Assembly: GCA_947652605.1 (NCBI GenBank)
Contig: OX393577.1
Location: 6,634,868 to 6,698,867 of the forward strand
Direction of reading: 5' to 3'
DNA: 64,000 bases
Source: Elmis aenea
Lineage: Eukaryota; Arthropoda; Insecta; Coleoptera; Elmidae
The translations under genes were made by a program, and so were the position numbers. Numbering within the stretch: position 1 is the stretch's first letter; each line of letters opens with the position of its first letter. Under the pieces are notes generated by a model, which worked only from the letters and a program-made list of their open reading frames with translations, did no database searches and was not told where the DNA came from. Of the stretch, positions 2,381 through 54,965 are shown in pieces.

Positions 2381-2805
2381 ATTTCCCGAGCTTAAAGCTA
2401 AAAACCCCGACATGGACTCAAGAGCAACTAAAAGAAGCAATCGACGCTGTAGTGAGACAGAAAATGCGTTTCACTCAGGCATCCTTACGTTATGGAATTC
2501 CCAAGGGAACTCTTTATGATAATATCCTGGGAAAAACTAAGCGCATGGCCGTGCTTGAAGAAGCAGGTTTGACGCCAATCGAAGAGGCCGCCGTGTTAGA
2601 ATTTTGCTGTGATGTATCTGTATCTCCTTATAATAGACGCACAAAAAAATCCCTGCAGTCCGTTTTGGGTTTCGTTGAAAAATTAAGACGCAATAGAGAT
2701 CCAGAATTCATGTTCACAGGGCTATCTGGCTTTAGATGGTGGTGGGCATTTTGCAAAAAGCACAGCATAGTTTCGCTATATTATGATAACGGGTCGACTT
2801 TTTAG
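2381..2805 (+). CDS. bab: Alternative terminal exon: psq-like HTH plus CENP-B-like helical domain
   Basis: The acceptor is strong (TTTTTGTTTGGTTAG at 2366-2380), and the exon opens in phase 1 and ends at TAG 2803-2805, giving about 140 aa. A psq/HTH motif starts about ten residues in (TWTQEQLKEAIDAVV...FTQASLRYGIPKGTLYDNI). A second region follows, with NRRTKKSLQSVLGFVEKLRR and then FRWWWAFCKKHSIVSL, which resembles the tandem HTH of CENP-B/Tigger-like DNA-binding regions. The protein ends shortly after. An in-frame ATG at 2338 lies in the intron and is probably not used. Conserved codons and splice phase argue for a real exon. Which BTB gene it belongs to is inferred from position and phase. 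Confidence 0.7.
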
Positions 2806-21400: not shown

Positions 21401-24400
21401 AGTCCATGTGCCTATAAGCCTGTATCTATTTCATTCCCATTTGAAAATATTTAGAAATTCAAGTAGATGAAATATGTATCTCTCCCATTTTTGTGTATGT
21501 AAATGTGTACTATGAACTATACAGGAGTTGTGTAGTCGGGGAAGGAGATCTTTGGAGTTGATACACCTCCCTTAAAAAAAAGTAGCTTATGGTGTTGTTT
21601 AGTTCTAATTTCGTCCTTTAATTTTGTGACTGAAGGTGTTAACAGTTTTGCATATTTGGTACATGCATTTAAAAATAAGCTTGTGTTGTCTTCAAAATAG
21701 ACTTTTGTACTATTAAAAATTAGTACCTCTGTATCTACACTACTGCTCTGTGGTTTTTATTTTTTTTGTGTACAAGTAATCTATTACTGTATTGTACTAT
21801 TCTAGTTTGTGTACAAACCCTAATTAACTCGTATTCTTACTGTGTATTGTATTTTATTTTAATTTTGTGTGGCATATTACTTCAGTAGTCTACTCTTTGT
21901 ATTAAGTATTTGAAACTTTTTTAATAAACTGCATAATCACTCTTAAAACTTTGCAAACTTTTTTCTCCTTCTGGAATCCTTATAGTTTTTGGCACACACC
22001 TCTAAATTAATTCTTAGTGGAAAAAAAGTTTAAAATATGTAGCATATAAAACACTAGCTGATGTGGATGAGCAATATTATTTTAGTTTTAAAAACTTGTA
22101 GTGTCGTTAGTGTAGAGCTTTTGTTGCACTCTTTAGAAGTTATTTTTTTAAATCATTTAGTTTCCGAATTCTACTTTTCTTGTGCTCTTAAAATGCTTTA
22201 ATTATTAAGATTTTTGTTTTAGCCACTGGAGTGCGTTCAGGAATTCGAAACTGGTGTGCTGTGTATCAAAAACCTCGAATGCATTGCGTTCATAAATTCC
22301 TTTGGTGTGCACATAATATGCACATTTTACACCCCACCTGGGACTGGTGTGTGGGTGTGCGCACCGGTTGATACACTACAAGGCATGCACCAACACCAGT
22401 TTCGAATTCCTGAACACACTCCTGTTGTAGTTAAAGTAACTCGGAAATGATTTGTTAGAGGCGCTTTGCTAAATGCTGCCTAGTAGTTTTGCTGGCTTGC
22501 TGTGTGAATTTTGTGTAAATTGCAATATTTAGCATATTTTTAAAAACATTCATTATTAGTTTCACCTTTTTTTAATTTTAATCGCCTAAAAACAATTAAA
22601 TTGTTTATGCAGGGCCAGATTTACGTATAGGCCATGTACATCTGGGCCTAGGGCCCCACAATTTTGGGGTTCTGAAGAGGCTTGGTGTTACTTAAAATCA
22701 AAGAGTTATTTTAATATTAATAATTTTCACGGTTTGCGGGACCCATTTTACCTTTTCAGCCCAGGGGCCCATGAAAACCTTAACCTGGTACTGTGTTCAT
22801 GAAGTTGGTAAAACTGATTGGAGTCTAGCTTTAAAAATTATCTAAGAATCATCGATATTGTTTAACTTTAATTTTAGTTGTTTTTAATTTAAATTTCTAG
22901 GTCAGTGTTTTCCAAACTTTCGCCATCTGGGTACCCCTTCTATAATTTTCTTAACACTGAGTACCCATCGTTGAAAAACAATTAAAATAATAAACGAAAA
23001 ATAAAATTTATTCATAATAAAATACAAGTAAAATAAATAAAAGTTATATCATAAATAACATTCATTATAATCGCGTACCTCCACCAAACTCTTCCCGTAC
23101 CCCCAGTGGTACGCTTAACACACATTGGGAAACACTGTTCTAGATAATTACAAAAATGTCCAGTGTTCCAAAGGTGTTCTGAACTCATATGCAAATAAAG
23201 AAAATATTGTTATTGCTTTGAAATAATTGGTTGAAAAATTCTTTAAGGAATTAGTTAGCAATAATTATTATTTTAGGTGGCAAGCACGTAAAGAAGGCGA
23301 TCGAAATATGCGGGCAGGTCTTATACCTAGTAGGGCGTTACAGGAAAGAAGAATCATACACGAAAGAGCTCAAGTACCTAAAGAAAACGAGGAGGGTAAG
23401 ACCGAGTTTTAAAAAAAAAAAATTTCCAACCTGCTTTGTGTGTTGCTGATCGCATGTTGTGTTTTTTTCTTTGTAACAAGGAAAGGAATCTCAATTCTTG
23501 TTGTGCAAAAAAATTAAATTTTAGGCTTCGACACGACTAACTAGGCCACTGGGGCCATAGGGCTGTGCTCTGTTTCAGCTTTACCTGTGCTAACCTGCAG
23601 TCAGTCCCCGAAATCCCCTAGTTGTGCCTCCAAACCTAAAACTAAAAAGATTATGTATGACACAGCGGAAAATGATGACTTTGACCGTGAGCAAATTGCC
23701 ACCTATGAAGAAGTTGCCAAACTGTACCCTCGTCCAGGCATATATAGACCGCTCATACTCATTGGAGCCCCAGGAGTGGGACGTAATGAATTAAAGAGAC
23801 GCCTTATTGCCACCAATCCTGATAAATACAAAACTCCAACACCTTGTAAGTATATTTTTTTGTAGAATGTGATCACATACTATGGTTTAGCATGACTGTA
23901 CAGTGTGTTCAAAAGGTTTGGAATATGCTGTATATCTCAGTAAATATCCACTTTAGGGAAAAATGTTTTGAATAAAAGTTGTTTGGTACTTACTTTTCCA
24001 CCATAAGACAAAATTTAAATATTTTTTTTTCGAATAACAAGTGCAATGAAAAACAATTGAATTTTTTAAATGACAAGATACCCCTACATTATACTTATTT
24101 GATGGAGAATTTTTTTCTCTTTTCAATGATGTAAGTAAAGCTTTAGTACCCTTACTTAAGCAACTTTTTGAGAAAAACGCAATTTTAATTGTTTAGTATT
24201 CATTTCTAACAAAAACAAAAGAACTAAAATTTTTTGACGAAATCCACAATAAGTGTTCAAACTGTGAACCATTGGCAAAGATAAACTCGGTTTTTAAACC
24301 TGTTAATAACATTCCCAACCATTTCAGCTGTAATAGACCTCATCTCTTTTCTAATACGACCTTTTAAATTTTCGATATTCTCCGGCCTCTTAGCATAAAC

Positions 24401-26140
24401 TTTGTTTTTAAGGTGACCCCATCATTGAAAAGAGAAAAAAAAACTGTCAAATGAGTATAATGTAGGGGTATCTTGGTCATTTATAAAAATTTAATTGTTT
24501 TTCATTGCGCTTTTGTTATTCGAAAAACAAAATTTAATTTTGTCTTATGGTGGAAAACAAAGTACGAAACAACTTTTATTCAAAACATTTTCCCCTAAAG
24601 TGGATATTTACCGAGATATATAGCATATTCTAATTCCATACCTTTTGGACACACACTGTATACTAAGTGTAAAAGTGTTGTAATTAGTGAAGCATGTCTT
24701 AGTAATAGTACTGAAGTCGTTGCTAAATTTTGAAAAAAAGGCATACAATCTGCACATTTAACTGATTCTTCAACTAGTAGTTTCTGAAATATCCTAGGGG
24801 CTAAGTTCTTTTGGTCATACTTTAAAAAGAATAAAAAAATATACCGTTTTTTTTAATGTTATCAAAAGTGCAAATGGTTTAAAATAGTGAACATCTTTGT
24901 TGTTTACTACTTTATCAAAGATACAACTAAAAGTTTGTAATTGGACAAGCGTGTTCATTTGTTTTGTTTCACCAGACAATCTAGAATTATTAAGTATTAA
25001 CCAATCAGGATTCAGGAATCATGCATCAGGCAAATATTGTAAAACAATGGCGTAGGCAGGATGCTTCCATGGGGGGGTTAATCCGGTTAATAAACGTAAA
25101 ATGAGCTGAGTAATTTTTTATTAGGTCTCTTGAAGTTTTTTAATGGCAGGATGTTTGATGGTTTCATCATGGGGTAGGTTAATAAATGCCAAAAAGAGCT
25201 GAGGACCTTTTTTTAGAACAAAATTTACAGTTCTCTGGCCCTAGATCGACTTATTGCAAACCTATGGGGGGGTTCTGACCCCCCTAACACCTAACCTAAC
25301 CTAACCTGACCCCCCTAACACCCCTTGCCTATGCCACTGTTGTAAAATAACGCTTGGTGCTTAAGACTATTGTAATCTCATAGAATTTTGGCATTTTTAG
25401 AACTGCAGAAACAATCATTTTAAATATTTAAACCACCTATTTTTATTTTTTGATAACTGAAGTAACCCCCATTGGCATGATTAAAGCCTCCAAGTTTATA
25501 AAATGAAAAGAACTTTTAATTAATTTGTCTGTAAAACAAATTTTGTTTATGTTTTATAGATACATCGAGACCAATGAAACCGGGCGAAGTCAACGGAAAA
25601 GAATATTATTTTGTTACCCGAGAAAAAATGGAAGAAGATGTTGAAGCAAGTAAATTTTTAGAATTCGGCGAATATAAGGGAAACTTGTACGGTACATCGT
25701 CAGAAAGTGTGAAAGCTTTAGTGAATTCTGGTTATGTCTGTATACTTAATCCTCATTACCAAGCCTTAAAAATGTTGAGAATCCCTCAACTTAAACCGTA
25801 TATAGTTTATATAAAGCCACCTCCTTTGGATATACTAAAGGAGACGAGGAATGCCGTTCATGCCCGATCTACCTTTGATGTTAATAATTCAAGAGGTTTT
25901 ACGGTAAAAATATTGAACCCATACCACCACGAAATGTATTTCTAAATACATCCATTGTTGCAGGATGAAGAATTTACTGATATAATGAAAGCTTCAGAAC
26001 GCATAGAATTTCTGTACAGTCACTTTTTCGACGACACCATTGTTAATGAAGACTTGGCAATTGCATTTAGTCATCTTGTTGTTGCTGCCACTCGTGTAGA
26101 ATCTGAACCACTGTGGGTGCCTGCTTCTTGGGTTCAGTGA
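15434..26140 (+). CDS. metro: MAGUK scaffold, MPP7 / menage-a-trois type (L27-PDZ-SH3-GUK)
   Basis: Membrane-associated scaffold without enzyme activity. Known for the family: MPP7 and Drosophila Metro pair through L27 domains with Lin-7 and Dlg-type MAGUKs at junctions and synapses. Nine exons join as 15434-15482, 16499-16779, 18350-18481, 18808-18975, 19033-19229, 23277-23395, 23579-23845, 25560-25903, 25964-26140. They total 1734 nt, 577 aa plus stop, close to the vertebrate MPP7 length, and every junction is GT-AG and in frame. Domains: L27 about 17-130, PDZ about 141-222 ([20 protein letters not shown]), SH3 about 235-305 ([31 protein letters not shown]), hook about 306-370, GUK about 371-567 ending WVPASWVQ. 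The P-loop is degenerate (GAPGVGRNE, no Lys), as expected for a non-catalytic [20 protein letters not shown] favours MPP3/MPP7 over varicose or stardust. Confidence 0.9.
16499..16779 (+). CDS. metro: metro exon 2 (L27 region)
   Basis: Acceptor GTATTTAG at 16498, donor GTGCAG|GTATAA at 16779/16780. It encodes [20 protein letters not shown] through [10 protein letters not shown]: helical L27 sequence with [13 protein letters not shown], covering one L27 unit and the start of the next. Confidence 0.88.
16805..17384. mobile_element. CAGGGTG-type MITE in metro intron 2
   Basis: Near-perfect terminal inverted repeats of more than 50 bp: left CAGGGTGAGGGGCATCACTT; the right complement is CAGGGTGGGGCATCACTTAT, and both continue into GACACCCCCACTTATTTTG. 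TA flanks each side (16803-16804, 17385-17386). About 580 bp long with no transposase. Confidence 0.9.
17400..18349. other. Remainder of metro intron 2
   Basis: AT-rich intron with no exon, repeat ends or RNA gene that I can recognise. Confidence 0.5.
18350..18481 (+). CDS. metro: metro exon 3 (end of L27, start of PDZ)
   Basis: Acceptor TTAATTTAG, donor CCACTG|GTATGT. It encodes [20 protein letters not shown], an acidic linker, and [13 protein letters not shown]. It ends exactly before the PDZ carboxylate-binding loop. Confidence 0.9.
18631..18660 (+). CDS. metro: Candidate 30-nt cassette microexon in the metro PDZ
   Basis: TCTGGCGCTCTAAGTCCTGA plus ten further bases encodes [10 protein letters not shown], ten codons in phase 0. 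It is bracketed by TTTTTTCTTTGCTTGCAAAG and by a near-perfect donor, GTAAGTATTT. It lies in the 326-bp intron between exons 3 and 4, both of whose edges are phase 0, so inclusion keeps the frame and adds ten residues (587 aa in total). Inclusion would separate NEPL from GATI, the loop that receives the ligand carboxylate. Codon content and both splice sites support it; no transcript evidence is available. Confidence 0.6.
18808..18975 (+). CDS. metro: metro exon 4 (PDZ core)
   Basis: Acceptor TTAAATTAG, donor ATATTG|GTGAGG, 56 codons in phase 0. It encodes [40 protein letters not shown] and [11 protein letters not shown]. The following intron is only 57 bp. Confidence 0.93.
19033..19229 (+). 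CDS. metro: metro exon 5 (PDZ end and SH3)
   Basis: Acceptor CATCTTTGCAG, donor TACTG|GTAAGA inside a Trp codon. It encodes [17 protein letters not shown], then the SH3 with ALYDY-like AHFDY and [20 protein letters not shown]. Confidence 0.93.
19300..20453. other. metro intron 5, left part
   Basis: AT-rich intron with no exon. A weak hAT-like repeat at 19708-19876 is listed separately. Confidence 0.45.
19708..19876. mobile_element. Possible short hAT-type MITE
   Basis: Left end CAGGGTCGGATTTA and right end TAAATCCGGTTCTG are complementary with two mismatches. About 170 bp long. No clear 8-bp duplication, so support is moderate. Confidence 0.45.
20454..21269. mobile_element. CAGGGTG-type MITE containing a second MITE
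   Basis: Outer arms: CAGGGTGTCCCACAAGGTAT on the left and its complement with CCTTGTGGAACACCCTG on the right, about 100 bp of near-complementary sequence (AATTTTTGCATAAATCGAAT in both arms). Between them, 20575-21165 has its own terminal inverted repeat (CAGGGTATCCCAGTTATCGT, with CATGCTGTTCAGTTTACCAG on the other side). One element therefore appears inserted in another of the same broad type, in metro intron 5. Confidence 0.85.
20575..21165. mobile_element. Inner nested MITE
   Basis: Arms share GGTCAAAATGAT.. / ..CATTTTGACC, AACCAACTCTGTATCTC-type sequence and CAGCATGGG. The ends are CAGGGTATCCC and GGGACACCCT. There is no transposase. The longer frame at 20625-20846 is only arm sequence. 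Confidence 0.75.
22228..22422. mobile_element. 195-bp MITE with EcoRI-palindrome TIRs
   Basis: Terminal inverted repeats of about 28 bp: GGAGTGCGTTCAGGAATTCG on the left and CGAATTCCTGAACACACTCC on the right, each continuing with AAACTGGTG or its complement. It lies in metro intron 5. No transposase and no clear target duplication. A 64-codon frame inside is not a gene. Confidence 0.75.
22610..22793. mobile_element. hAT-type MITE with 8-bp duplication
   Basis: Starts CAGGGCCAGATTTACG and ends CTTAACCTGGTACTG; a GGGCCC-rich segment lies near each end. Flanks are TGTTTATG (22602-22609) and TGTTCATG (22794-22801), an 8-bp duplication with one change. About 184 bp long. Confidence 0.7.
22903..23137. 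mobile_element. hAT-type MITE with 8-bp duplication
   Basis: Starts CAGTGTTTTCCAAACTTT and ends with the complementary TTGGGAAACACTG; GGGTACCCC or GTACCCCCAG lies inside each end. Flanks are TTCTAGGT (22895-22902) and TTCTAGAT (23138-23145), one mismatch. 235 bp long, 139 bp before metro exon 6. Confidence 0.8.
23277..23395 (+). CDS. metro: metro exon 6 (SH3 end and hook)
   Basis: Acceptor TATTATTTTAG, donor GAGG|GTAAGA. It completes the split Trp and encodes [20 protein letters not shown], then a charged hook ([19 protein letters not shown]). Confidence 0.92.
23579..23845 (+). CDS. metro: metro exon 7 (hook and GUK start)
   Basis: The acceptor GCTCTGTTTCAG at 23578 is the one that fits the phase-1 donor of exon 6; the later CAG at 23600 would break frame. 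The donor is CACCTT|GTAAGT. It encodes a Ser/Pro-rich stretch ([12 protein letters not shown]), a basic patch (KPKTKK), [20 protein letters not shown] and the degenerate P-loop [14 protein letters not shown]. Confidence 0.9.
23901..24658. mobile_element. Deleted Tc1/mariner-type transposon with transposase remnant
   Basis: TA-flanked terminal inverted repeats of more than 50 bp (left CAGTGTGTTCAAAAGGTTTG; right complement CAGTGTGTGTCCAAAAGGTA; both contain CTTTAGGG near 55 bp). The centre holds an antisense fragment of a DDE transposase. It sits in metro intron 7. It links the inverted-repeat MITE style of this window to the Tc1/mariner superfamily. Confidence 0.9.
24257..24421 (-). pseudogene. 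C-terminal fragment of a Tc1/mariner-like transposase
   Basis: The minus strand reads 54 codons to a stop: [35 protein letters not shown] and [13 protein letters not shown]. This is the characteristic end of Tc1/mariner-like DDE transposases (WGxLKxxVY...P.....L..RI......I....V......R...C). The N-terminal and catalytic parts are missing. Confidence 0.88.
25045..25339. mobile_element. hAT-type element with 8-bp duplication
   Basis: Starts CAATGGCGTAGGCA and ends TGCCTATGCCACTG. The exact 8-bp direct repeat TTGTAAAA flanks it (25037-25044, 25340-25347). A related copy in the opposite orientation is at 61545-61799. The right end contains a short CCTAA tandem. Confidence 0.88.
25560..25903 (+). 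CDS. metro: metro exon 8 (GUK)
   Basis: Acceptor TATGTTTTATAG, donor TTTACG|GTAAAA (weaker than the others). It begins by completing Tyr and encodes [40 protein letters not shown] and [20 protein letters not shown]. The TSR and [10 protein letters not shown] motifs are GUK hallmarks. Reading through the donor would stop 14 codons later. Confidence 0.92.
25964..26140 (+). CDS. metro: metro exon 9 (GUK end, stop)
   Basis: Acceptor CATTGTTGCAG after a 60-bp intron. It encodes [20 protein letters not shown] through [18 protein letters not shown] and WVPASWVQ, then TGA. The WVP.SW ending is typical of p55-type MAGUKs. Confidence 0.92.
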   Translation, partial: DEEFTDIMKASERIEFLYSHFFDDTIVNEDLAIAFSHLVVAATRVESEPLWVPASWVQ

Positions 26141-30972: not shown

Positions 30973-31462
30973 GAGGTACCAGGATCACAGAAATGCGAAG
31001 AGGTTAAATCCGCTACGTCGCAGTATCATAACAACCGCGAGTTTTGATTCAAAAGTTGGACCAAAATATTAGCAAGGGTATTAGGATCACAGGAGTTGCA
31101 TGAGATTGTTTGCAACGCTAACGCCACAAATGGGACCTGCAAATGTTCTGTTTTGAGGTGAGCTACCAGGATCACAGAAATGCGAAGAAGTTAATAACTC
31201 TGCTACGTCGCAGTATCATTACAACTAACTTATGAATTTTGATCCAAAAATTGGACTGAAATATTAGGATCACAGGAGTTGCATGGGATTGTTTGTAATG
31301 CTACTCAGGGGCCTGGCCCTGGTGGTGAATAGCCCAACTAGATTTTTTGGACAATTCTCTGCAATTTTGAAAACATCTTTGCAGTTTACTTTTGAGTTGA
31401 GGTACCAGGATCACAGAAATACGAAGAGGTTAAATCTGCTACGTCGCAGTATCATAACAACC
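30973..31462. repeat. Three-copy diverged tandem repeat
   Basis: A module with TACCAGGATCACAGAAAT, GCGAAGA and CTACGTCGCAGTATCAT occurs at about 30977, 31164 and 31403 (periods about 187 and 240). A second element, AGGATCACAGGAGTTGCATG, appears between copies (31083, 31264). The last interval carries an extra GC-rich segment (GGGGCCTGGCCCTGGTGGTG). It lies 370 bp left of the large satellite and is unrelated to it in sequence. Confidence 0.8.
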
Positions 31463-31834
31463 TCATAGATCTTATGCGTTGAGTGTTGCATATGATGAAA
31501 TAAAAACACAAAATACTGTAATATTTTTATTATTTCAAAAAAGCTAACAAACATAAAGAACCAATAATTTTGAAGTAAAGTCACAACTAATGACACTTAT
31601 AATTATCATACGGTTAGATGTTACGCTGGGAATGCATTATTAAATGTAACAGTAATAACTACATTATCAGCATTTCTACTTTTGTAAAAATTATAATTAT
31701 TACAGCGCAATCACAATAAAATCAAAATCAGTGAAAATATTAAAATTGCACGTGTTTTTTACATCCAAGTTTGCACTGATTTTTGTAAAATATTAATAAA
31801 CAATAACTTAAATACAACTGTTACAATTTTATTA

Positions 31835-34800
31835 TTAGCCCTCAAATAAGTTTTTAATTTTTCGTGAAAAATGGGAAAAGTGCAAAGACTATAGCCTTTG
31901 CACTTTTCCCATTTTTGACCAAAATATCGATTTTCTTAAAACTAATGCAAATGGCTTCTCACTTCTTAAACTTGTCATTTATGGCCTAATTAATGATTAT
32001 TAGCCCTCGAATACCTTTTTTAATTTTTCGTGAAAAATGGGAAAAGTGCAAAGACTATAGCCTTTGCACTTTTCCCATTTTTGACCAAAATATCGATTTT
32101 CTTAAAACTAATGCAAATGACTTCTCACTTCTTAAACATGTCATTTATGGCCTAATTAATGATTATAGCCCTCGAATAACTTTTTTAATTCTTCGTGAAA
32201 AATGGGAAAAGTGCAAAGACTATAGCCTTTGCACTTTTCCCATTTTTGACCAAAATATCGATTTTCTTAAAACTAATGCAAATGGCTTCTCACTTCTTAA
32301 ACATGTCATTTATGGCCTAATTAATGATTATAGCCCTCGAATAACTTTTTTAATTTTTCGTGAAAAATGGGAAAAGTGCAAAGACTATAGCCTTTGCACT
32401 TTTCCCATTTTTGACCAAAATATCGATTTTCTTAAAACTAATGCAAATGGCTTCTCACTTCTTAAACATGTCATTTATGGCCTAATTAATGATTATAGCC
32501 CTCGAATAACTTCTTTAATTTTTCGTGAAAAATGGGAAAAGTGCAAAGGCTATAGTCTTTGCACTTTTCCCATTTTTGACCATAATATCGATTTTCTTAA
32601 AACTAATGCAAATGGCTTCTCACTTCTTAAACATGTCATTTATGGCCTAATTAATGATTATAGCCCTCGAATAACTTTTTTAATTTTTCGTGAAAAATGG
32701 GAAAAGTGCAAAGACTATATCGATTTTCTTAAAACTAATGCAAATGGCTTCTCACTTCTTATACATGTCATTTATGGCCGAATTAATGATTATTAGCCCT
32801 CAAATAACTTTTTTAATTTTTCGTGAAAAATGGGAAAAGTGCAAAGACTATAGCCTTTGCACTTTTCCCATTTTTGACCAAAATATCGATTTTCTTAAAA
32901 CTAATGCAAATGGCTTCTCACTTCTTAAACATGTCATTTATGGCCTAATTAATGATTATAGCCCTCGAATAACTTTTTTAATTTTTCGTGAAAAATGGGA
33001 AAAGTGCAAAGGCTATAGTCTTTGCACTTTTCCCATTTTTGACCAAAATATCGATTTTCTTAAAACTAATGCAAATGGCTTCTCACTTCTTAAACATGTC
33101 ATTTATGGCCTAATTAATGATTATAGCCCTCGAATAACTTTTTTAATTTTTCGTGAAAAATGGGAAAAGTGCAAAGACTATAGCCTTTGCACTTTTCCCA
33201 TTTTTGACCAAAATATCGATTTTCTTAAAACTAATGCAAATGGCTTCTCACTTCTTAAACATGTCATTTATGGCCTAATTAATGATTATAGCCCTCGAAT
33301 AACTTTTTTAATTTTTCGTGAAAAATGGGAAAAGTGCAAAGACTATAGCCTTTGCACTTTTCCCATTTTTGACCAAAATATCGATTTTCTTAAAACTAAT
33401 GCAAATGGCTTCTCACTTCTTAAACATGTCATTTATGGCCTAATTAATGATTATAGCCCTCGAATAACTTTTTTAATTTTTCGTGAAAAATGGGAAAAGT
33501 GCAAAGACTATAGCCTTTGCACTTTTCCCATTTTTGACCAAAATATCGATTTTCTTAAAACTAATGCAAATGGCTTCTCACTTCTTAAACATGTCATTTA
33601 TGGCCTAATTAATGATTATAGCCCTCGAATGACTTTTTTAATTTTTCGTGAAAAATGGGAAAAGTGCAAAGACTATAGCCTTTGCACTTTTCCCATTTTT
33701 GACCAAAATATCGATTTTCTTAAAACTAATGCAAATGGCTTCTCACTTCTTAAACATGTCATTTATGGCCTAATTAATGATTAATAGCCCTCGAATAACT
33801 TTTTTAATTTTTCGTGAAAAATGGGAAAAGTGCAAAGACTATAGCCTTTGCACTTTTCCCATTTTTGACCAAAATATCGATTTTCTTAAAACTAATGCAA
33901 ATGTCTTCTCACTTCTTAAACATGTCATTTATGGCCTAATTAATGATTATAGCCCTCGAATAACTTTTTTAATTTTTCGTGAAAAATGGGAAAAGTGCAA
34001 AGACTATAGCCTTTGCACTTTTCCCATTTTTGACCAAAATATCGATTTTCTTAAAACTAATGCAAATGGCTTCTCACTTCTTAAACATGTCATTTATGGC
34101 CTAATTAATGATTATAGCCCTCGAATAACTTTTTTAATTTTTCGTGAAAAATGGGAAAAGTGCAAAGACTATAGCCTTTGCACTTTTCCCATTTTTGACC
34201 AAAATATCGATTTTCTTAAAACTAATGCAAATGGCTTCTCACTTCTTAAACATGTCATTTATGGCCTAATTAATGATTATAGCCCTCGATTTTTAATTTT
34301 TCGTGAAAAATGGGAAAAGTGCAAAGACTATAGCCTTTGCACTTTTCCCATTTTTGACCAAAATATCGATTTTCTTAAAACTAATGCAAATGGCTTCTCA
34401 CTTCTTAAACATGTCATTTATGGCCTAATTAATGATTATAGCCCTCGAATAACTTTTTTAATTTTTCGTGAAAAATGGGAAAAGTGCAAAGACTATAGCC
34501 TTTGCACTTTTCCCATTTTTGACCAAAATATCGATTTTCTTAAAACTAATGCAAATGGCTTCTCACTTCTTAAACATGTCATTTATGGCCTAATTAATGA
34601 TTATAGCCCTCGAATAACTTTTTTAATTTTTCGTGAAAAATGGGAAAAGTGCAAAGGCTATAGTCTTTGCACTTTTCCCATTTTTGACCAAAATATCGAT
34701 TTTCGTAAAACTAATGCAAATGGCTTCTCACTTCTTAAACATGTCATTTATGGCCTAATTAATGATTATAGCCCTCGAATGACTTTTTTAATTTTTCGTG

Positions 34801-37800
34801 AAAAATGGGAAAAGTGCAAAGACTATAGCCTTTGCACTTTTCCCATTTTTGACCAAAATATCGATTTTCTTAAAACTAATGCAAATGGCTTCTCACTTCT
34901 TAAACATGTCATTTATGGCCTAATTAATGATTATAGCCCTCGAATAACTTTTTTAATTTTTCGTGAAAAATGGGAAAAGTGCAAAGACTATAGCCTTTGC
35001 ACTTTTCCCATTTTTGACCAAAATATCGATTTTCTTAAAACTAATGCAAATGGCTTCTCACTTCTTAAACATGTCATTTATGGCCTAATTAATGATTATA
35101 GCCCTCGAATAACTTTTTTAATTTTTCGTGAAAAATGGGAAAAGTGCAAAGGCTATAGTCTTTGCACTTTTCCCATTTTTGACCAAAATATCGATTTTCG
35201 TAAAACTAATGCAAATGGCTTCTCACTTCTTAAACATGTCATTTATGGCCTAATTAATGATTATAGCCCTCGAATGACTTTTTTAATTTTTCGTGAAAAA
35301 TGGGAAAAGTGCAAAGACTATAGCCTTTGCACTTTTCCCATTTTTGACCAAAATATCGATTTTCTTAAAACTAATGCAAATGGCTTCTCACTTCTTAAAC
35401 ATGTCATTTATGGCCTAATTAATGATTATAGCCCTCGAATAACTTTTTTAATTTTTCGTGAAAAATGGGAAAAGTGCAAAGGCTATAGTCTTTGCACTTT
35501 TCCCATTTTTGACCAAAATATCGATTTTCTTAAAACTAATGCAAATGGCTTCTCACTTCTTAAACATGTCATTTATGGCCTAATTAATGATTATAGCCCT
35601 CGAATGACTTTTTTAATTTTTCGTGAAAAATGGGAAAAGTGCAAAGACTATAGCCTTTGCACTTTTCCCATTTTTGACCAAAATATCGATTTTCTTAAAA
35701 CTAATGCAAATGGCTTCTCACTTCTTAAACATGTCATTTATGGCCTAATTAATGATTATAGCCCTCGAATAACTTTTTTAATTTTTCGTGAAAAATGGGA
35801 AAAGTGCAAAGACTATAGCCTTTGCACTTTTCCCATTTTTGACCAAAATATCGATTTTCTTAAAACTAATGCAAATGGCTTCTCACTTCTTAAACATGTC
35901 ATTTATGGCCTAATTAATGATTATAGCCCTCGAATAACTTTTTTAATTTTTCGTGAAAAATGGGAAAAGTGCAAAGGCTATAGTCTTTGCACTTTTCCCA
36001 TTTTTGACCAAAATATCGATTTTCTTAAAACTAATGCAAATGGCTTCTCACTTCTTAAACATGTCATTTATGGCCTAATTAATGATTATAGCCCTCGAAT
36101 AACTTTTTTAATTTTTCGTGAAAAATGGGAAAAGTGCAAAGACTATAGCCTTTGCACTTTTCCCATTTTTGACCAAAATATCGATTTTCTTAAAACTAAT
36201 GCAAATGGCTTCTCACTTCTTAAACATGTCATTTATGGCCTAATTAATGATTATAGCCCTCGAATAACTTTTTTAATTTTTCGTGAAAAATGGGAAAAGT
36301 GCAAAGACTATAGCCTTTGCACTTTTCCCATTTTTGACCAAAATATCGATTTTCTTAAAACTAATGCAAATGGCTTCTCACTTCTTAAACATGTCATTTA
36401 TGGCCTAATTAATGATTATAGCCCTCGATTTTTAATTTTTCGTGAAAAATGGGAAAAGTGCAAAGACTATAGCCTTTGCACTTTTCCCATTTTTGACCAA
36501 AATATCGATTTTCTTAAAACTAATGCAAATGGCTTCTCACTTCTTAAACATGTCATTTATGGCCTAATTAATGATTATAGCCCTCGAATAACTTTTTTAA
36601 TTTTTCGTGAAAAATGGGAAAAGTGCAAAGACTATAGCCTTTGCACTTTTCCCATTTTTGACCAAAATATCGATTTTCTTAAAACTAATGCAAATGGCTT
36701 CTCACTTCTTATACATGTCATTTATGGCCGAATTAATGATTATTAGCCCTCAAATAACTTTTTTAATTTTTCGTGAAAAATGGGAAAAGTGCAAAGACTA
36801 TATAGCCTTTGCACTTTTCCCATTTTTGACCAAAATATCGATTTTCTTAAAACTAATGCAAATGGCTTCTCACTTCTTAAACATGTCATTTATGGCCTAA
36901 TTAATGATTAATAGCCCTCGAATAACTTTTTTAATTTTTCGTGAAAAATGGGAAAAGTGCAAAGACTATAGCCTTTGCACTTTTCCCATTTTTGACCAAA
37001 ATATCGATTTTCGTAAAACTAATGCAAATGGCTTCTCACTTCTTAAACATGTCATTTATGGCCTAATTAATGATTATAGCCCTCGAATGACTTTTTTAAT
37101 TTTTCGTGAAAAATGGGAAAAGTGCAAAGACTATAGCCTTTGCACTTTTCCCATTTTTGACCAAAATATCGATTTTCTTAAAACTAATGCAAATGGCTTC
37201 TCACTTCTTAAACATGTCATTTATGGCCTAATTAATGATTATAGCCCTCGAATAACTTTTTTAATTTTTCGTGAAAAATGGGAAAAGTGCAAAGACTATA
37301 GCCTTTGCACTTTTCCCATTTTTGACCAAAATATCGATTTTCTTAAAACTAATGCAAATGGCTTCTCACTTCTTAAACATGTCATTTATGGCCTAATTAA
37401 TGATTATAGCCCTCGAATAACTTTTTTAATTTTTCGTGAAAAATGGGAAAAGTGCAAAGACTATAGCCTTTGCACTTTTCCCATTTTTGACCAAAATATC
37501 GATTTTCTTAAAACTAATGCAAATGGCTTCTCACTTCTTAAACATGTCATTTATGGCCTAATTAATGATTATAGCCCTCGAATAACTTTTTTAATTTTTC
37601 GTGAAAAATGGGAAAAGTGCAAAGACTATAGCCTTTGCACTTTTCCCATTTTTGACCAAAATATCGATTTTCTTAAAACTAATGCAAATGGCTTCTCACT
37701 TCTTAAACATGTCATTTATGGCCTAATTAATGATTATAGCCCTCGAATGACTTTTTTAATTTTTCGTGAAAAATGGGAAAAGTGCAAAGACTATAGCCTT

Positions 37801-40800
37801 TGCACTTTTCCCATTTTTGACCAAAATATCGATTTTCTTAAAACTAATGCAAATGGCTTCTCACTTCTTAAACATGTCATTTATGGCCTAATTAATGATT
37901 ATAGCCCTCGAATAACTTTTTTAATTTTTCGTGAAAAATGGGAAAAGTGCAAAGACTATAGCCTTTGCACTTTTCCCATTTTTGACCAAAATATCGATTT
38001 TCTTAAAACTAATGCAAATGCTCACTTCTTAAACATGTCATTTATGGCCTAATTAATGATTAATAGCCCTCGAATAACTTTTTTAATTTTTCGTGAAAAA
38101 TGGGAAAAGTGCAAAGACTATAGCCTTTGCACTTTTCCCATTTTTGACCAAAATATCGATTTTCTTAAAACTAATGCAAATGGCTTCTCACTTCTTAAAC
38201 ATGTCATTTATGGCCTAATTAATGATTATAGCCCTCGAATAACTTTTTTAATTTTTCGTGAAAAATGGGAAAAGTGCAAAGGCTATAAGTCTTTGCACTT
38301 TTCCCATTTTTGACCAAAATATCGATTTTCTTAAAACTAATGCAAATGGCTTCTCACTTCTTAAACATGTCATTTATGGCCTAATTAATGATTATAGCCC
38401 TCGAATAACTTTTTTAATTTTTCGTGAAAAATGGGAAAAGTGCAAAGGCTATAGTCTTTGCACTTTTCCCATTTTTGACCAAAATATCGATTTTCTTAAA
38501 ACTAATGCAAATGGCTTCTCACTTCTTAAACATGTCATTTATGGCCTAATTAATGATTATAGCCCTCGAATAACTTTTTTAATTTTTCGTGAAAAATGGG
38601 AAAAGTGCAAAGACTTATAGCCTTTGCACTTTTCCCATTTTTGACCAAAATATCGATTTTCTTAAAACTAATGCAAATGGCTTCTCACTTCTTAAACATG
38701 TCATTTATGGCCTAATTAATGATTATAGCCCTGGAATAACTTTTTTAATTTTTCGTGAAAAATGGGAAAAGTGCAAAGACTATAGCCTTTGCACTTTTCC
38801 CATTTTTGACCAAAATATCGATTTTCTTAAAACTAATGCAAATGGCTTCTCACTTCTTAAACATGTCATTTATGGCCTAATTAATGATTATAGCCCTCGA
38901 ATAACTTTTTTAATTTTTCGTGAAAAATGGGAAAAGTGCAAAGACTATAGCCTTTGCACTTTTCCCATTTTTGACCATAATATCGATTTTCTTAAAACTA
39001 ATGCAAATGGCTTCTCACTTCTTAAACATGTCATTTATGGCCTAATTAATGATTATAGCCCTCGAATAACTTTTTTAATTTTTCGTGAAAAATGGGAAAA
39101 GTGCAAAGACTATAGCCTTTGCACTTTTCCCATTTTTGACCATAATATCGATTTTCTTAAAACTAATGCAAATGGCTTCTCACTTCTTATACATGTCATT
39201 TATGGCCGAATTAATGATTATTAGCCCTCAAATAACTTTTTTAATTTTTCGTGAAAAATGGGAAAAGTGCAAAGACTATAGCCTTTGCACTTTTCCCATT
39301 TTTGACCAAAATATCGATTTTCTTAAAACTAATGCAAATGGCTTCTCACTTCTTAAACATGTCATTTATGGCCTAATTAATGATTATAGCCCTCGAATAA
39401 CTTTTTTAATTTTTCGTGAAAAATGGGAAAAGTGCAAAGACTATAGCCTTTGCACTTTTCCCATTTTTGACCAAAATATCGATTTTCTTAAAACTAATGC
39501 AAATGGCTTCTCACTTCTTAAACATGTCATTTATGGCCTAATTAATGATTATAGCCCTCGAATAACTTTTTTAATTTTTCGTGAAAAATGGGAAAAGTGC
39601 AAAGACTATAGCCTTTGCACTTTTCCCATTTTTGACCAAAATATCGATTTTCTTAAAACTAATGCAAATGGCTTCTCACTTCTTAAACATGTCATTTATG
39701 GCCTAATTAATGATTATAGCCCTCGAATGACTTTTTTAATTTTTCGTGAAAAATGGGAAAAGTGCAAAGACTATAGCCTTTGCACTTTTCCCATTTTTGA
39801 CCAAAATATCGATTTTCTTAAAACTAATGCAAATGGCTTCTCACTTCTTAAACATGTCATTTATGGCCTAATTAATGATTATAGCCCTTAAATAACTTTT
39901 TTAATTTTTCGTGAAAAATGGGAAAAGTGCAAAGACTATAGCCTTTGCACTTTTCCCATTTTTGACCAAAATATCGATTTTCTTAAAACTAATGCAAATG
40001 GCTTCTCACTTCTTAAACATGTCATTTATGGCCTAATTAATGATTATAGCCCTCGAATAACTTTTTTAATTTTTCGTGAAAAATGGGAAAAGTGCAAAGA
40101 CTATAGCCTTTGCACTTTTCCCATTTTTGACCATAATATCGATTTTCTTAAAACTAATGCAAATGGCTTCTCACTTCTTAAACATGTCATTTATGGCCTA
40201 ATTAATGATTATAGCCCTCGAATGACTTTTTTAATTTTTCGTGAAAAATGGGAAAAGTGCAAAGACTATAGCCTTTGCACTTTTCCCATTTTTGACCAAA
40301 ATATCGATTTTCTTAAAACTAATGCAAATGGCTTCTCATTTCTTAAACATATCATTTATGGCCTAATTAATGATTATAGCCCTCGAATAACTTTTTTAAT
40401 TTTTCGTGAAAAATGGGAAAAGTGCAAAGACTATAGCCTTTGCACTTTTCCCATTTTTGACCATAATATCGATTTTCTTAAAACTAATGCAAATGGCTTC
40501 TCACTTCTTATACATGTCATTTATGGCCGAATTAATGATTATAGCCCTCGAATAACTTTTTTAATTTTTCGTGAAAAATGGGAAAAGTGCAAAGACTATA
40601 GCCTTTGCACTTTTCCCATTTTTGACCAAAATATCGATTTTCTTAAAACTAATGCAAATGGCTTCTCATTTCTTAAACATATCATTTATGGCCTAATTAA
40701 TGATTATAGCCCTCGAATAACTTTTTTAATTTTTCGTGAAAAATGGGAAAAGTGCAAAGACTATAGCCTTTGCACTTTTCCCATTTTTGACCAAAATATC

Positions 40801-43800
40801 GATTTTCTTAAAACTAATGCAAATGGCTTCTCACTTCTTAAACATGTCATTTATGGCCTAATTAATGATTATAGCCCTCGAATAACTTTTTTAATTTTTC
40901 GTGAAAAATGGGAAAAGTGCAAAGACTATAGCCTTTGCACTTTTCCCATTTTTGACCATAATATCGATTTTCTTAAAACTAATGCAAATGGCTTCTCACT
41001 TCTTAAACATGTCATTTATGGCCTAATTAATGATTATAGCCCTCGAATAACTTTTTTAATTTTTCGTGAAAAATGGGAAAAGTGCAAAGACTATAGCCTT
41101 TGCACTTTTCCCATTTTTGACCATAATATCGATTTTCTTAAAACTAATGCAAATGGCTTCTCACTTCTTATACATGTCATTTATGGCCGAATTAATGATT
41201 ATTAGCCCTCAAATAACTTTTTTAATTTTTCGTGAAAAATGGGAAAAGTGCAAAGACTATAGCCTTTGCACTTTTCCCATTTTTGACCATAATATCGATT
41301 TTCTTAAAACTAATGCAAATGGCTTCTCACTTCTTAAACATGTCATTTATGGCCTAATTAATGATTATAGCCCTCGAATAACTTTTTTAATTTTTCGTGA
41401 AAAATGGGAAAAGTGCAAAGACTATAGCCTTTGCACTTTTCCCATTTTTGACCATAATATCGATTTTCTTAAAACTAATGCAAATGGCTTCTCACTTCTT
41501 ATACATGTCATTTATGGCCGAATTAATGATTATTAGCCCTCAAATAACTTTTTTAATTTTTCGTGAAAAATGGGAAAAGTGCAAAGACTATAGCCTTTGC
41601 ACTTTTCCCATTTTTGACCAAAATATCGATTTTCTTAAAACTAATGCAAATGGCTTCTCATTTCTTAAACATGTCATTTATGGCCTAATTAATGATTATA
41701 GCCCTCGAATAACTTTTTTAATTTTTCGTGAAAAATGGGAAAAGTGCAAAGACTATAGCCTTTGCACTTTTCCCATTTTTGACCAAAATATCGATTTTCT
41801 TAAAACTAATGCAAATGGCTTCTCACTTCTTAAACATGTCATTTATGGCCTAATTAATGATTATAGCCCTCGAATAACTTTTTTAATTTTTCGTGAAAAA
41901 TGGGAAAAGTGCAAAGACTATAGCCTTTGCACTTTTCCCATTTTTGACCATAATATCGATTTTCTTAAAACTAATGCAAATGGCTTCTCACTTCTTATAC
42001 ATGTCATTTATGGCCGAATTAATGATTATTAGCCCTCAAATAACTTTTTTAATTTTTCGTGAAAAATGGGAAAAGTGCAAAGACTATAGCCTTTGCACTT
42101 TTCCCATTTTTGACCAAAATATCGATTTTCTTAAAACTAATGCAAATGGCTTCTCACTTCTTAAACATGTCATTTATGGCCTAATTAATGATTATAGCCC
42201 TCGAATAACTTTTTTAATTTTTCGTGAAAAATGGGAAAAGTGCAAAGACTATAGCCTTTGCACTTTTCCCATTTTTGACCAAAATATCGATTTTCTTAAA
42301 ACTAATGCAAATGGCTTCTCATTTCTTAAACATGTCATTTATGGCCTAATTAATGATTATAGCCCTCGAATAACTTTTTTAATTTTTCGTGAAAAATGGG
42401 AAAAGTGCAAAGACTATAGCCTTTGCACTTTTCCCATTTTTGACCAAAATATCGATTTTCTTAAAACTAATGCAAATGGCTTCTCACTTCTTAAACATGT
42501 CATTTATGGCCTAATTAATGATTATAGCCCTCGAATAACTTTTTTAATTTTTCGTGAAAAATGGGAAAAGTGCAAAGACTATAGCCTTTGCACTTTTCCC
42601 ATTTTTGACCAAAATATCGATTTTCTTAAAACTAATGCAAATGGCTTCTCACTGCTTAAACATGTCATTTATGGCCTAATTAATGATTATAGCCCTCGAA
42701 TAACTTTTTTAATTTTTCGTGAAAAATGGGAAAAGTGCAAAGACTATAGCCTTTGCACTTTTCCCATTTTTGACCAAAATATCGATTTTCTTAAAACTAA
42801 TGCAAATGGCTTCTCACTTCTTAAACATGTCATTTATGGCCTAATTAATGATTATAGCCCTCGAATGACTTTTTTAATTTTTCGTGAAAAATGGGAAAAG
42901 TGCAAAGACTATAGCCTTTGCACTTTTCCCATTTTTGACCAAAATATCGATTTTCTTAAAACTAATGCAAATGGCTTCTCATTTCTTAAACATGTCATTT
43001 ATGGCCTAATTAATGATTATAGCCCTCGAATAACTTTTTTAATTTTTCGTGAAAAATGGGAAAAGTGCAAAGACTATAGCCTTTGCACTTTTCCCATTTT
43101 TGACCAAAATATCGATTTTCTTAAAACTAATGCAAATGGCTTCTCATTTCTTAAACATGTCATTTATGGCCTAATTAATGATTATAGCCCTCGAATAACT
43201 TTTTTAATTTTTCGTGAAAAATGGGAAAAGTGCAAAGACTATAGCCTTTGCACTTTTCCCATTTTTGACCAAAATATCGATTTTCTTAAAACTAATGCAA
43301 ATGGCTTCTCACTTCTTAAACATGTCATTTATGGCCTAATTAATGATTATAGCCCTCGAATAACTTTTTTAATTTTTCGTGAAAAATGGGAAAAGTGCAA
43401 AGACTATAGCCTTTGCACTTTTCCCATTTTTGACCATAATATCGATTTTCTTAAAACTAATGCAAATGGCTTCTCACTTCTTATACATGTCATTTATGGC
43501 CGAATTAATGATTATTAGCCCTCAAATAACTTTTTTAATTTTTCGTGAAAAATGGGAAAAGTGCAAAGACTATAGCCTTTGCACTTTTCCCATTTTTGAC
43601 CAAAATATCGATTTTCTTAAAACTAATGCAAATGGCTTCTCACTTCTTAAACATGTCATTTATGGCCTAATTAATGATTATAGCCCTCGAATAACTTTTT
43701 TAATTTTTCGTGAAAAATGGGAAAAGTGCAAAGACTATAGCCTTTGCACTTTTCCCATTTTTGACCAAAATATCGATTTTCTTAAAACTAATGCAAATGG

Positions 43801-46264
43801 CTTCTCACTTCTTAAACATGTCATTTATGGCCTAATTAATGATTATAGCCCTCGAATAACTTTTTTAATTTTTCGTGAAAAATGGGAAAAGTGCAAAGGC
43901 TATAGTCTTTGCACTTTTCCCATTTTTGACCAAAATATCGATTTTCTTAAAACTAATGCAAATGGCTTCTCACTTCTTAAACATGTCATTTATGGCCTAA
44001 TTAATGATTATAGCCCTCGAATGACTTTTTTAATTTTTCGTGAAAAATGGGAAAAGTGCAAAGACTATAGCCTTTGCACTTTTCCCATTTTTGACCAAAA
44101 TATCGATTTTCTTAAAACTAATGCAAATGGCTTCTCACTTCTTAAACATGTCATTTATGGCCTAATTAATGATTATAGCCCTCGAATAACTTTTTTAATT
44201 TTTCGTGAAAAATGGGAAAAGTGCAAAGACTATAGCCTTTGCACTTTTCCCATTTTTGACCAAAATATCGATTTTCTTAAAACTAATGCAAATGGCTTCT
44301 CACTTCTTAAACATGTCATTTATGGCCTAATTAATGATTATAGCCCTCGAATAACTTTTTTAATTTTTCGTGAAAAATGGGAAAAGTGCAAAGACTATAG
44401 CCTTTGCACTTTTCCCATTTTTGACCAAAATATCGATTTTCTTAAAACTAATGCAAATGGCTTCTCACTTCTTAAACATGTCATTTATGGCCTAATTAAT
44501 GATTATAGCCCTCGAATAACTTTTTTAATTTTTCGTGAAAAATGGGAAAAGTGCAAAGGCTATAAGTCTTTGCACTTTTCCCATTTTTGACCAAAATATC
44601 GATTTTCTTAAAACTAATGCAAATGTCTTCTCACTTCTTAAACATGTCATTTATGGCCTAATTAATGATTATAGCCCTCGAATAACTTTTTTAATTTTTC
44701 GTGAAAAATGGGAAAAGTGCAAAGACTATAGCCTTTGCACTTTTCCCATTTTTGACCAAAATATCGATTTTCTTAAAACTAATGCAAATGGCTTCTCACT
44801 TCTTAAACATGTCATTTATGGCCTAATTAATGATTATAGCCCTCGAATAACTTTTTTAATTTTTCGTGAAAAATGGGAAAAGTGCAAAGACTATAGCCTT
44901 TGCACTTTTCCCATTTTTGACCAAAATATCGATTTTCTTAAAACTAATGCAAATGGCTTCTCACTTCTTAAACATGTCATTTATGGCCTAATTAATGATT
45001 ATAGCCCTTAAATAACTTTTTTAATTTTTCGTGAAAAATGGGAAAAGTGCAAAGACTATAGCCTTTGCACTTTTCCCATTTTTGACCAAAATATCGATTT
45101 TCTTAAAACTAATGCAAATGGCTTCTCACTTCTTAAACATGTCATTTATGGCCTAATTAATGATTATAGCCCTCGAATAACTTTTTTAATTTTTCGTGAA
45201 AAATGGGAAAAGTGCAAAGACTATAGCCTTTGCACTTTTCCCATTTTTGACCAAAATATCGATTTTCCTAAAACTAATGCAAATGGCTTCTCACTTCTTA
45301 AACATGTCATTTATGGCCTAATTAATGATTATAGCCCTCGAATAACTTTTTTAATTTTTCGTGAAAAATGGGAAAAGTGCAAAGACTATAGCCTTTGCAC
45401 TTTTCCCATTTTTGACCAAAATATCGATTTTCTTAAAACTAATGCAAATGGCTTCTCACTTCTTAAACATGTCATTTATGGCCTAATTAATGATTATAGC
45501 CCTCGAATAACTTTTTTAATTTTTCGTGAAAAATGGGAAAAGTGCAAAGACTATAGCCTTTGCACTTTTCCCATTTTTGACCAAAATATCGATTTTCCTA
45601 AAACTAATGCAAATGGCTTCTCACTTCTTAAACATGTCATTTATGGCCTAATTAATGATTATAGCCCTCGAATAACTTTTTTAATTTTTCGTGAAAAATG
45701 GGAAAAGTGCAAAGACTATAATAGCCTTTGCACTTTTCCCATTTTTGACCAAAATATCGATTTTCTTAAAACTAATGCAAATGGCTTCTCACTTCTTAAA
45801 CATGTCATTTATGGCCTAATTAATGATTATAGCCCTCGAATAACTTTTTTAATTTTTCGTGAAAAATGGGAAAAGTGCAAAGACTATAGCCTTTGCACTT
45901 TTCCCATTTTTGACCAAAATATCGATTTTCTTAAAACTAATGCAAATGGCTTCTCACTTCTTAAACATGTCATTTATGGCCTAATTAATGATTATAGCCC
46001 TCGAATAACTTTTTTAATTTTTCGTGAAAAATGGGAAAAGTGCAAAGACTATAGCCTTTGCACTTTTCCCATTTTTGACCAAAATATCGATTTTCTTAAA
46101 ACTAATGCAAATGGCTTCTCACTTCTTAAACATGTCATTTATGGCCTAATTAATGATTATAGCCCTCGAATAACTTTTTTAATTTTTCGTGAAAAATGGG
46201 AAAAGTGCAAAGACTATAGCCTTTGCACTTTTCCCATTTTTGACCAAAATATCGATTTTCTTAC
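31835..46264. repeat. 165-bp hairpin satellite, about 87 tandem copies
   Basis: The unit runs from GATTATAGCCCTCGAATAAC to GGCCTAATTAAT with a period of exactly 165 bp; for example, the GATTA junctions are at 32161 and 32326. Copies are almost identical inside the array. The first copy is more diverged and the array breaks off within a unit at the right edge. Each normal unit contains a perfect 21-bp inverted repeat (32198-32218 with 32227-32247) around an 8-nt loop ACTATAGC. Allowing two mismatches, the stem grows to about 29 bp. Variants: inverted loop, loop indels, a unit lacking one hairpin arm (32710s), 6-bp deletions (34287, 36427), and a linked block TTATACATG...GGCCGAATT...TTAGCCCTCAAATA. 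The long open frames across the array arise because 165 is 55 codons with no stop in that frame. I see no evidence of a protein. Confidence 0.97.
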
Positions 46265-53734: not shown

Positions 53735-54965
53735 GTTATCTTCATCACCATCATCATTGTCCTCTTTTACCCGTAGGCAGGTGTCGAGGATTGTTCCTTC
53801 ATATTACTTTCCCCAAACCCCTTTCGGTCCCTGGCCAGCAACCTTGCTTCCTCCATGATTTTCCTCTGCGTTTTGGCATCTCCACTACGCTGTTGTTCCA
53901 GGTTCTAGTTTGTATCCTTCTGTTTATGCCTATTTTTCTGGCTTCCCATATTTTCTTAACCTGTTTTGTGTTGTCCGTTCATATTAAATGGCCTGTTCAC
54001 TTTAATTTCTTTTCCTCTATTTTACTTTTCAGTGGCTTCATTTTAAGTTTTTCTCTTGTGCGTTCGTTTCTTATTTTATCTGCTCTTCTTGCCCCTACCA
54101 CCTTTCTTAAGTACCGCATTTCTGCAGCCTGTAATCTTTCTCTCGTCCTTTATTTATAACCCAATTCTCAGCCCTATATTCTTATGTACATTGTATCGTA
54201 ATCTGTTATTTAAGTTTCTCTTGATATCTCTTTTTTTATTAAGAAAATTTTTGTATATCGCGTTGTATGTCCTTGTTGCTGTGTTTAACCCATTTCTTTT
54301 TTCCTTTTCTTGTGTACATTTACTATTTAGGTATAATTATTCCACGATACTTAAATTGATCTACCTGCTCTAACATTTCTTCTCCAAGTCTAATGTTGAT
54401 TTTCTTTTCTTTATTGGAGATAGCCATTACCTTAGTTTTCTCCTTATTGACTATTTTGTTGTAATCCTTCATCATATCAACCCACACATTAATAATCATT
54501 TTAAGTTCTTTTTCGTTTTTACCTACCAGCACCGCATCATCCGCGAATACACAAACTTGTACTTTGACTTGTTGTAGATCGTGAAATCCTATTGTATACT
54601 TTGTCGTTTGATTCCAGCTTTGTTTTATCACTTCATCAATGAGACTTATAAACAGTAGCGGGCTTAATATTCCTCCTTGTCGTACTCCATGTTTATTTAC
54701 GATATGTCCTGACTCCTGAGGTTTGGTAGACTTTTGACTGTCTCCAATGTAGCATTTGCTTATTTATTCTTCAAGGCGTTTCATATTTTCTCTCTGTTTA
54801 CCGCATCGAATGCCTTCTCCAATCTCCATGTCTATAAATCCTAAATACACATTTTCTTTCTTCCTTAAGAGTTTTTACTGTAATTACCTGTATCGTGAAT
54901 ATATGGTAATGTAGACCATGAGCTGGTCTAAAGCCGCTTTGTTCATCAGCTAATTGTGTCTCTAC
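53735..54965 (-). mobile_element. 5'-truncated non-LTR retrotransposon with reverse transcriptase remnant
   Basis: On the minus strand: ADEQSGFRPAHGLHYHIFTI near 54950, an RT block with VRQGGILSPLLFISLIDEVI near 54690-54630, the catalytic FADDAVLVG motif, then the C-terminal region (EMRYLRKVVGARRADKIRNE, SKIEEKKLKWTGHL, near 54130-54000) and a 3' end of ATGATG-type triplets (53745-53765). Several frameshifts and stops break it. It looks like the same family as the remnants at 50645 and 56710. Confidence 0.82.
54323..54631 (-). pseudogene. Reverse transcriptase fragment (FADD box)
   Basis: An open stretch of about 100 codons contains FADDAVLVGKNEKELKMIIN, where F-A-D-D is the RT catalytic motif, then KTKVMAISN and EMLEQVDQFKYRGIII (thumb-side motif, usually EYLG). 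It is the longest intact piece of the dead element at 53735-54965. Confidence 0.85.

Follow-up and report, generated by a model that had tools for sequence, protein, structure and literature searches.

Can the centre of a hairpin be turned around inside a satellite repeat, and would such a turn be recognizable among the copies of the array? The question is raised by a 64,000-nucleotide stretch of the genome of the beetle Elmis aenea (C2:6634868-6698867, the window in what follows), which contains a satellite array whose 165-bp units carry a palindrome with a short centre, present in two mirror-image forms. One or a few inversions of this loop, followed by copying of the inverted unit along the array, is the explanation tentatively preferred here, and its chance of being correct is close to even; two mirrored substitutions are its main competitor.

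Mirror-image loops between perfect arms

The array belongs to a tandem satellite DNA family, with near-identical units arranged head to tail and related arrays elsewhere in the genome. An earlier note on this DNA gave its extent as 32198..44580, which is too short: Tandem Repeats Finder (TRF) delimits a longer array (Table 1). It contains 87 anchored units; the intact palindromes that could be parsed are also 87, one of them upstream of the first anchor, while the unit with its anchor at 32581 falls short by 33 bp and lacks part of the loop and the right arm. The palindrome is 50 bp long and consists of an 8-base centre, slightly longer in five of the 87 copies, flanked by inverted repeats; these 21-bp arms, AAAAATGGGAAAAGTGCAAAG and its complement, are perfect in 87/87 palindromes. 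A copy in the usual orientation (32198..32247) folds as DNA at -23.0 kcal/mol (z -9.6) and one in the opposite orientation at -23.6 kcal/mol as single-stranded DNA, a stability equalled in neither case by any of 200 shuffles. Two related units have weaker stems (-6.2 and -7.9 kcal/mol, equalled by 16 and 0 of 200 shuffles, respectively).

The loop starts with A and ends with C in 77 palindromes (AC loops; ACTATAGC in 74, ACTATATAGC, ACTTATAGC and ACTATAATAGC in one each), while it starts with G and ends with T in the other 10 (GT loops; GCTATAGT in eight, GCTATAAGT in two). GCTATAGT is the exact reverse complement of ACTATAGC, and the second loop allele likewise forms a mirror pair, ACTTATAGC versus GCTATAAGT. 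The two orientations described in the earlier note are thus real, and so are its approximately ten flipped units, all found within 3 bases of the positions it listed, including the two with an extra A. Neither G..C nor A..T loops occur among the 87 palindromes; exact counts of the cores in the window are 74 for AAAGACTATAGCCTTT and 8 for AAAGGCTATAGTCTTT, while the one-change cores AAAGACTATAGTCTTT and AAAGGCTATAGCCTTT are both absent. The further claim that the two bases always change together therefore holds in the window but not elsewhere in the satellite family, where single-change loops are common.

In the preferred explanation, the palindrome would fold as a hairpin or cruciform, and in the window array its centre would have undergone one or a few inversions in place. 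The most likely routes would be a switch of template strand by a replication fork within the arms or the resolution of an extruded cruciform. Unequal exchange or conversion, by which the array is homogenised, would then have spread the inverted unit to some ten positions. An inversion is favoured because mixed loops are absent from the window and rare genome-wide in units with the same left arm (3/641), and because the arms are perfect and the fold is stable.

Inversion is also supported by two observations at the hairpin itself. The right half of the window palindrome, TAGCCTTTGCACTTTTCCCATTTTT, matches perfectly over 25 bp the reverse-complemented left half of units of the type found at locus L034, whose own right half differs; in the same comparison the L010 and L012 types show two mismatches each. 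A single fold-back copy in an ancestor of this kind would account at once for the longer arm and for two T>C differences, while support for the neighbouring clade in a tree of the unit flanks is weak (89/43). The second observation comes from locus L035 (C2:5.8155 Mb), where the units run on the + strand at 1943-2748 and on the - strand at 2749-3032; the switch coincides with the right border of the palindrome core (AAAGACTATAAGCCTTT at 2730), and the right arm is partly missing. This arrangement suggests that the hairpin can serve as a turning point of an array. Both unit directions are found also in L021, approximately 7.6 kb apart.

Two informative bases and the loops of related arrays

Several findings weigh against an inversion, and they come from the loop itself, from related arrays and from a sister array. 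Since the inner CTATAG reads identically on both strands, an inversion is visible in two bases only, too few to exclude separate substitutions. Moreover, ACTATAGC and GCTATAGT are each one transition away from ACTATAGT and one from GCTATAGC, symmetric loops that complete a perfect palindrome, and the steps leading from the two forms to the symmetric ones mirror one another. For this reason coupled changes are also expected from two independent mirrored substitutions, which in a palindrome mimic an inversion exactly; the coupling alone is no proof, and the case serves as a caution. The window feature behaves like a hairpin loop inversion, and this view is slightly favoured, while the informative bases are too few to establish its membership in that class. 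The statement of the earlier note that the pair is best explained by flipping was thus too strong: the perfect arms, the stable hairpin and the 0/87 mixed loops slightly favour inversion, but symmetric loops one step away are present in relatives.

Indeed, in the 516-Mb genome, to which all genome-wide counts refer, the core AAAGACTATAGCCTTT occurs 4301 + 4642 times on the two strands and the symmetric core AAAGACTATAGTCTTT, with loop ACTATAGT, 782 times. Relatives were obtained from 29 regions and eight short loci, mostly the first-listed places on contig C1 and hence a non-random sample; L001-L008, contained in L009 and L010, were omitted from the counts, and the units of each locus were oriented by both flanks (Table 1). 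A differently filtered table, without L036 and L037, gives somewhat different numbers (AT 12 in L010, GT 40 in L011 and GT 47 in L034, for example) and contains four opposite-strand rows (L009, L017, L018, L035), apparently units read twice. ACTATAGT is found in L009, L010 and L011, and A..T or G..C loops also in L012, L013, L036 and L037; the idea that single-base intermediates are absent everywhere was therefore discarded. The extra-A loop GCTATAAGT also arises in the GT arrays L012, L013, L033 and L034, which makes the second mirror pair weak evidence and ruled it out as a decisive proof of inversion. Finally, reversal of direction at the hairpin is seen in one of the 22 sequences checked, that of L035, where it could alternatively derive from two arrays that fused secondarily. 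A difference in orientation is also found at the outer base pair of the arm, since the 24-base core of L010, GTACAAAGACTATAGCCTTTGCAC, when reverse-complemented, matches exactly the core of L033 and L034, GTGCAAAGGCTATAGTCTTTGTAC, so that this pair too exists in both orientations between arrays.

These data bear directly on the view that no inversion took place and that point mutations hit mirrored positions of a symmetric ancestor since lost from the array, either GCTATAGC, produced by a fold-back copy, or ACTATAGT. A G>A change on the left would give the AC loop, while the mirror C>T change on the right side, due to the same lesion in the opposite strand, would give the GT loop. In favour of this view, a single transition separates either form from a symmetric loop, ACTATAGT is frequent, and GCTATAGC is what fold-back copying of an L034-type left half would leave; in the sampled rows of the flank tree, single-change loops lie on flanks identical to those of AC units (L010) or of a GT unit (L009). 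However, this course requires two events and the loss of the ancestor, and no symmetric 8-base loop is present among the 87 window palindromes or the 154 loops parsed in the sister array. Adjoining the exact left arm GAAAAATGGGAAAAGTGCAAAG, 139 AC, 499 GT, two GC and one AT loops occur in the genome, so that the mixed forms, common elsewhere in the family, are nearly missing here. The same shortage holds in the arrays with GTGC on the left and short right arms (L033, L034), and for this reason it may reflect plain descent rather than an instability of perfect palindromes. Overall, mirrored mutation is a serious but doubtful explanation.

The sister array and the number of origins

The window array has a sister array of the same subfamily and with the same arms (L030-L032), which forms one clade with it in the flank-only tree (100/100); this tree samples 96 rows, up to five for each array and loop state and ten for the window GT units, and is rooted at the midpoint. 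The sister array has 160 anchors and 154 parsed loops of very variable length: ACTATAGC in 85, ACTTAGC in 19, ACTATTATAGC in 12, ACTATATAGC in 8, ACTTATAGC in 7, and ten rarer kinds. GCTATAGT occurs in none of the 154, no GT loop in the 84 perfect-arm units among the 159 aligned ones, and inverted versions of the asymmetric loops ACTTAGC and ACTATTATAGC were not seen in this array. Since the stem is the same and 0/84 units are flipped, flipping is not frequent, and the sister array lends no support to recurrence, which the earlier note offered as an option beside spread by conversion. Furthermore, one of the 159 sister units reads GCTATAAC, a single-change loop, altered on the left, that carries a further difference, and five loops read AAAAAGTCT, with a T-type right half. 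In the units at 9265622, 9271788, 9278946, 9282771 and 9285761, the loop is a run of A followed by AGTCTTT, in an otherwise AC array. A short repeat with AGGATCACAGAAAT and GAGGTTAA borders both arrays, at about 31400-31450 in the window and in the right flank of the sister array (L032), where it recurs every 90-185 bp approximately.

The two arrays also differ in their variable positions. Among 86 aligned window units, variable columns are 0/42 in the arms, 24/115 in the rest of the consensus (Fisher 0.0003) and 7/13 in the loop, a comparison of the arms that was made post hoc, on non-independent repeat units and with multi-base deletion columns counted singly. In the sister array the corresponding values are 14/42, 26/116 and 15/16, so invariance of the arms was rejected as a general feature. 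The sister hairpin loop is a mutation hot spot; its parsed texts range from 9 to 18 bases, with many TA steps, and 15/16 of its columns vary versus 40/158 of the others. A more far-reaching scenario, quite improbable in our opinion, is that the window cruciform is or was active and flips the loop while fold-back correction keeps the arms invariant; in the sister array the arms of the same stem would have drifted with no flips, in L035 the hairpin would have turned the whole array, and such arrays would act as natural recorders of hairpin activity.

The distribution of the loops also raises the possibility that GT was retained from an ancestor, or imported by conversion, and that AC is the newcomer, spread in the window and sister arrays. 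All 139 AC units with left arm GAAAAATGGGAAAAGTGCAAAG belong to these arrays (74 and 65, respectively); next to this arm, GT predominates and AC is confined to these two arrays, which lie 2.6 Mb from each other. GT as a form restricted to the window is ruled out. The flank tree places a GT clade nearest, although with weak support and depending on midpoint rooting, and L015 and L017 have GT loops within a GTGC...GCAC core. On the other hand, the sister loops lack GCTATAGT; the window GT units have the long window arms on both sides, which would limit an imported tract to about 24 bp; and AC must still be derived from GT by an inversion or by two substitutions. Retention or import is thus unlikely.

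Among the loci examined, AC and GT loops occur side by side only in the window, an odd unit of L035 apart, and here the flanks of the two forms can be compared. The earlier note placed the flipped form on different backgrounds, which is correct downstream of the loop: all four combinations of loop state are found with the column-2 marker (DHN, 27 bp downstream) and with the column-16 marker (FRKT, 41 bp downstream), as in seven other marker pairs 9-65 bp apart. It is less so upstream, where nine of the ten flipped units share the plain haplotype, versus 48/86 units overall (hypergeometric 0.02); this fits a single origin by any mechanism and not specifically an inversion. In the flank tree the ten GT units do not group on one branch, but many of the flanks are identical, and identical rows include both AC and GT units. 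The GT state needs 4 changes, of which starred branches force 2, on a tree with evident recombination.

Copying along the array is supported by two features: the GT units are clustered (p 0.024), and a GT unit followed by an FRKT unit is present twice, 495 bp apart, while the third FRKT unit follows an AC unit. Thus, the GT distribution fits one or a few origins followed by copying, as assumed in the preferred inversion.

The same linked copies bear on a technical origin, that is a fold-back at the hairpin during library amplification or consensus calling of the assembly. Hairpins of this kind are prone to fold-back by polymerases; however, the GT loop is shared by linked copies (the arrangement with FRKT and the extra-A loop, each present twice), it is common elsewhere in the same assembly, and the sister array should have been hit too. 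An artefact is therefore very improbable.

Table 1. Position of the satellite features and loop states of the related loci (loops named by first and last base).
Feature	Position	Strand	Remarks
Satellite array	31831..46263	+	165-bp unit; TRF, unit extraction and arm parse
Palindrome, usual orientation	32198..32247	+	arms AAAAATGGGAAAAGTGCAAAG / CTTTGCACTTTTCCCATTTTT around ACTATAGC
Palindrome, opposite orientation	32528..32577	+	loop GCTATAGT, same arms; core AAAGGCTATAGTCTTT starts at 32545
GT loop	33008..33023	+	AAAGGCTATAGTCTTT
GT loop	34653..34668	+	AAAGGCTATAGTCTTT; arrangement with next FRKT unit recurs 495 bp on (3-unit step)
GT loop	35148..35163	+	AAAGGCTATAGTCTTT; second copy of the 34653 arrangement
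GT loop	35478..35493	+	AAAGGCTATAGTCTTT
GT loop	35973..35988	+	AAAGGCTATAGTCTTT
GT loop, extra A	38278..38294	+	unit reads AAAGGCTATAAGTCTTT; loop GCTATAAGT, exact reverse complement of ACTTATAGC
GT loop	38444..38459	+	AAAGGCTATAGTCTTT
AC loop, extra T	38609..38625	+	loop ACTTATAGC; two units away from its reverse complement (38278)
GT loop	43895..43910	+	AAAGGCTATAGTCTTT
GT loop, extra A	44555..44571	+	unit reads AAAGGCTATAAGTCTTT; loop GCTATAAGT
Sister array (L030-L032)	C2:9261261-9287749 (9.261-9.288 Mb)		same subfamily, same arms
L009			AT 9, GT 1
L010			AT 15, AC 7
L011			GT 38, AT 5
L012			GT 32, GC 1
L013			GT 28, GC 1
L014			GT 23
L022			GT 24
L033			GT 8
L034			GT 39
L036			GT 2, AT 1, GC 1, TT 1
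L037			GT 5, GC 1
L015-L018, L021, L023, L035			few GT units each
L019			one AC
L020, L029			one unit each, without assignable orientation

Comparison with known hairpin inversions and neighbourhood of the array

Inversion of hairpin loops is already known in plastids, rRNA genes and primate genomes; the comparisons that follow refer to passages of the cited papers. In chloroplast non-coding DNA, hairpin loops of the trnH-psbA type are inverted, also within species, and are highly homoplasious in Paeonia (PMC2903610). As in the window, a loop is found in both orientations between inverted repeats (there 18 bp or longer); differently from the window, the inverted loop is mostly 25-27 bp long and thus unmistakable, instead of having two informative bases, while the beetle palindrome is repeated in many copies of a nuclear tandem array. 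In rRNA and microRNA hairpins, loop inversions by template switching have been described together with stem changes due to fold-back copying (PMC8794818). There too, a short, partly self-complementary loop can be inverted in place without a footprint in the stem; unlike the window satellite, these are RNA genes placed on a species tree, with polarity obtained from ancestral reconstruction.

Microinversions between human and chimpanzee are similarly, for the most part, exact reverse complements lying between inverted repeats (3-75 nt); the inverted segments measure 17-33 nt, compared to 8 in the window, and the study took only inversions longer than 15 nt, since shorter ones are hard to ascertain (PMC8755829). 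Insect satellites, such as that of Tribolium madens, also contain inverted repeats that could fold into hairpins or cruciforms and have arrays that reverse direction, as L035 does; the dyads reported measure less than 10 bp, around 300 bp or tens of kb, and changes of loop orientation between units are not described in the passages covered (PMC13081366). The terms satellite DNA and microinversion were not found together among the best 12 of 182 literature matches, which does not prove that no such report is in print, and six printed unit motifs had no match in the searched literature. If the inversion were confirmed, the window would offer dozens of adjacent copies of a single stem-loop, in which the rates of flipping and copying could be measured within a single molecule.

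Other features lie outside the array. On the + strand, at 16462-25942, there are frames with L27 and guanylate-kinase domains, which probably represent exons of a MAGUK-type gene close to the array. Two frames, at 2335-2802 and 5999-6388, contain pipsqueak helix-turn-helix domains, usually found in insect BTB factors or in pogo-type transposons. Finally, a reverse transcriptase fragment (RVT_1), the remnant of a retroelement, is located at 54326-54763 on the - strand.

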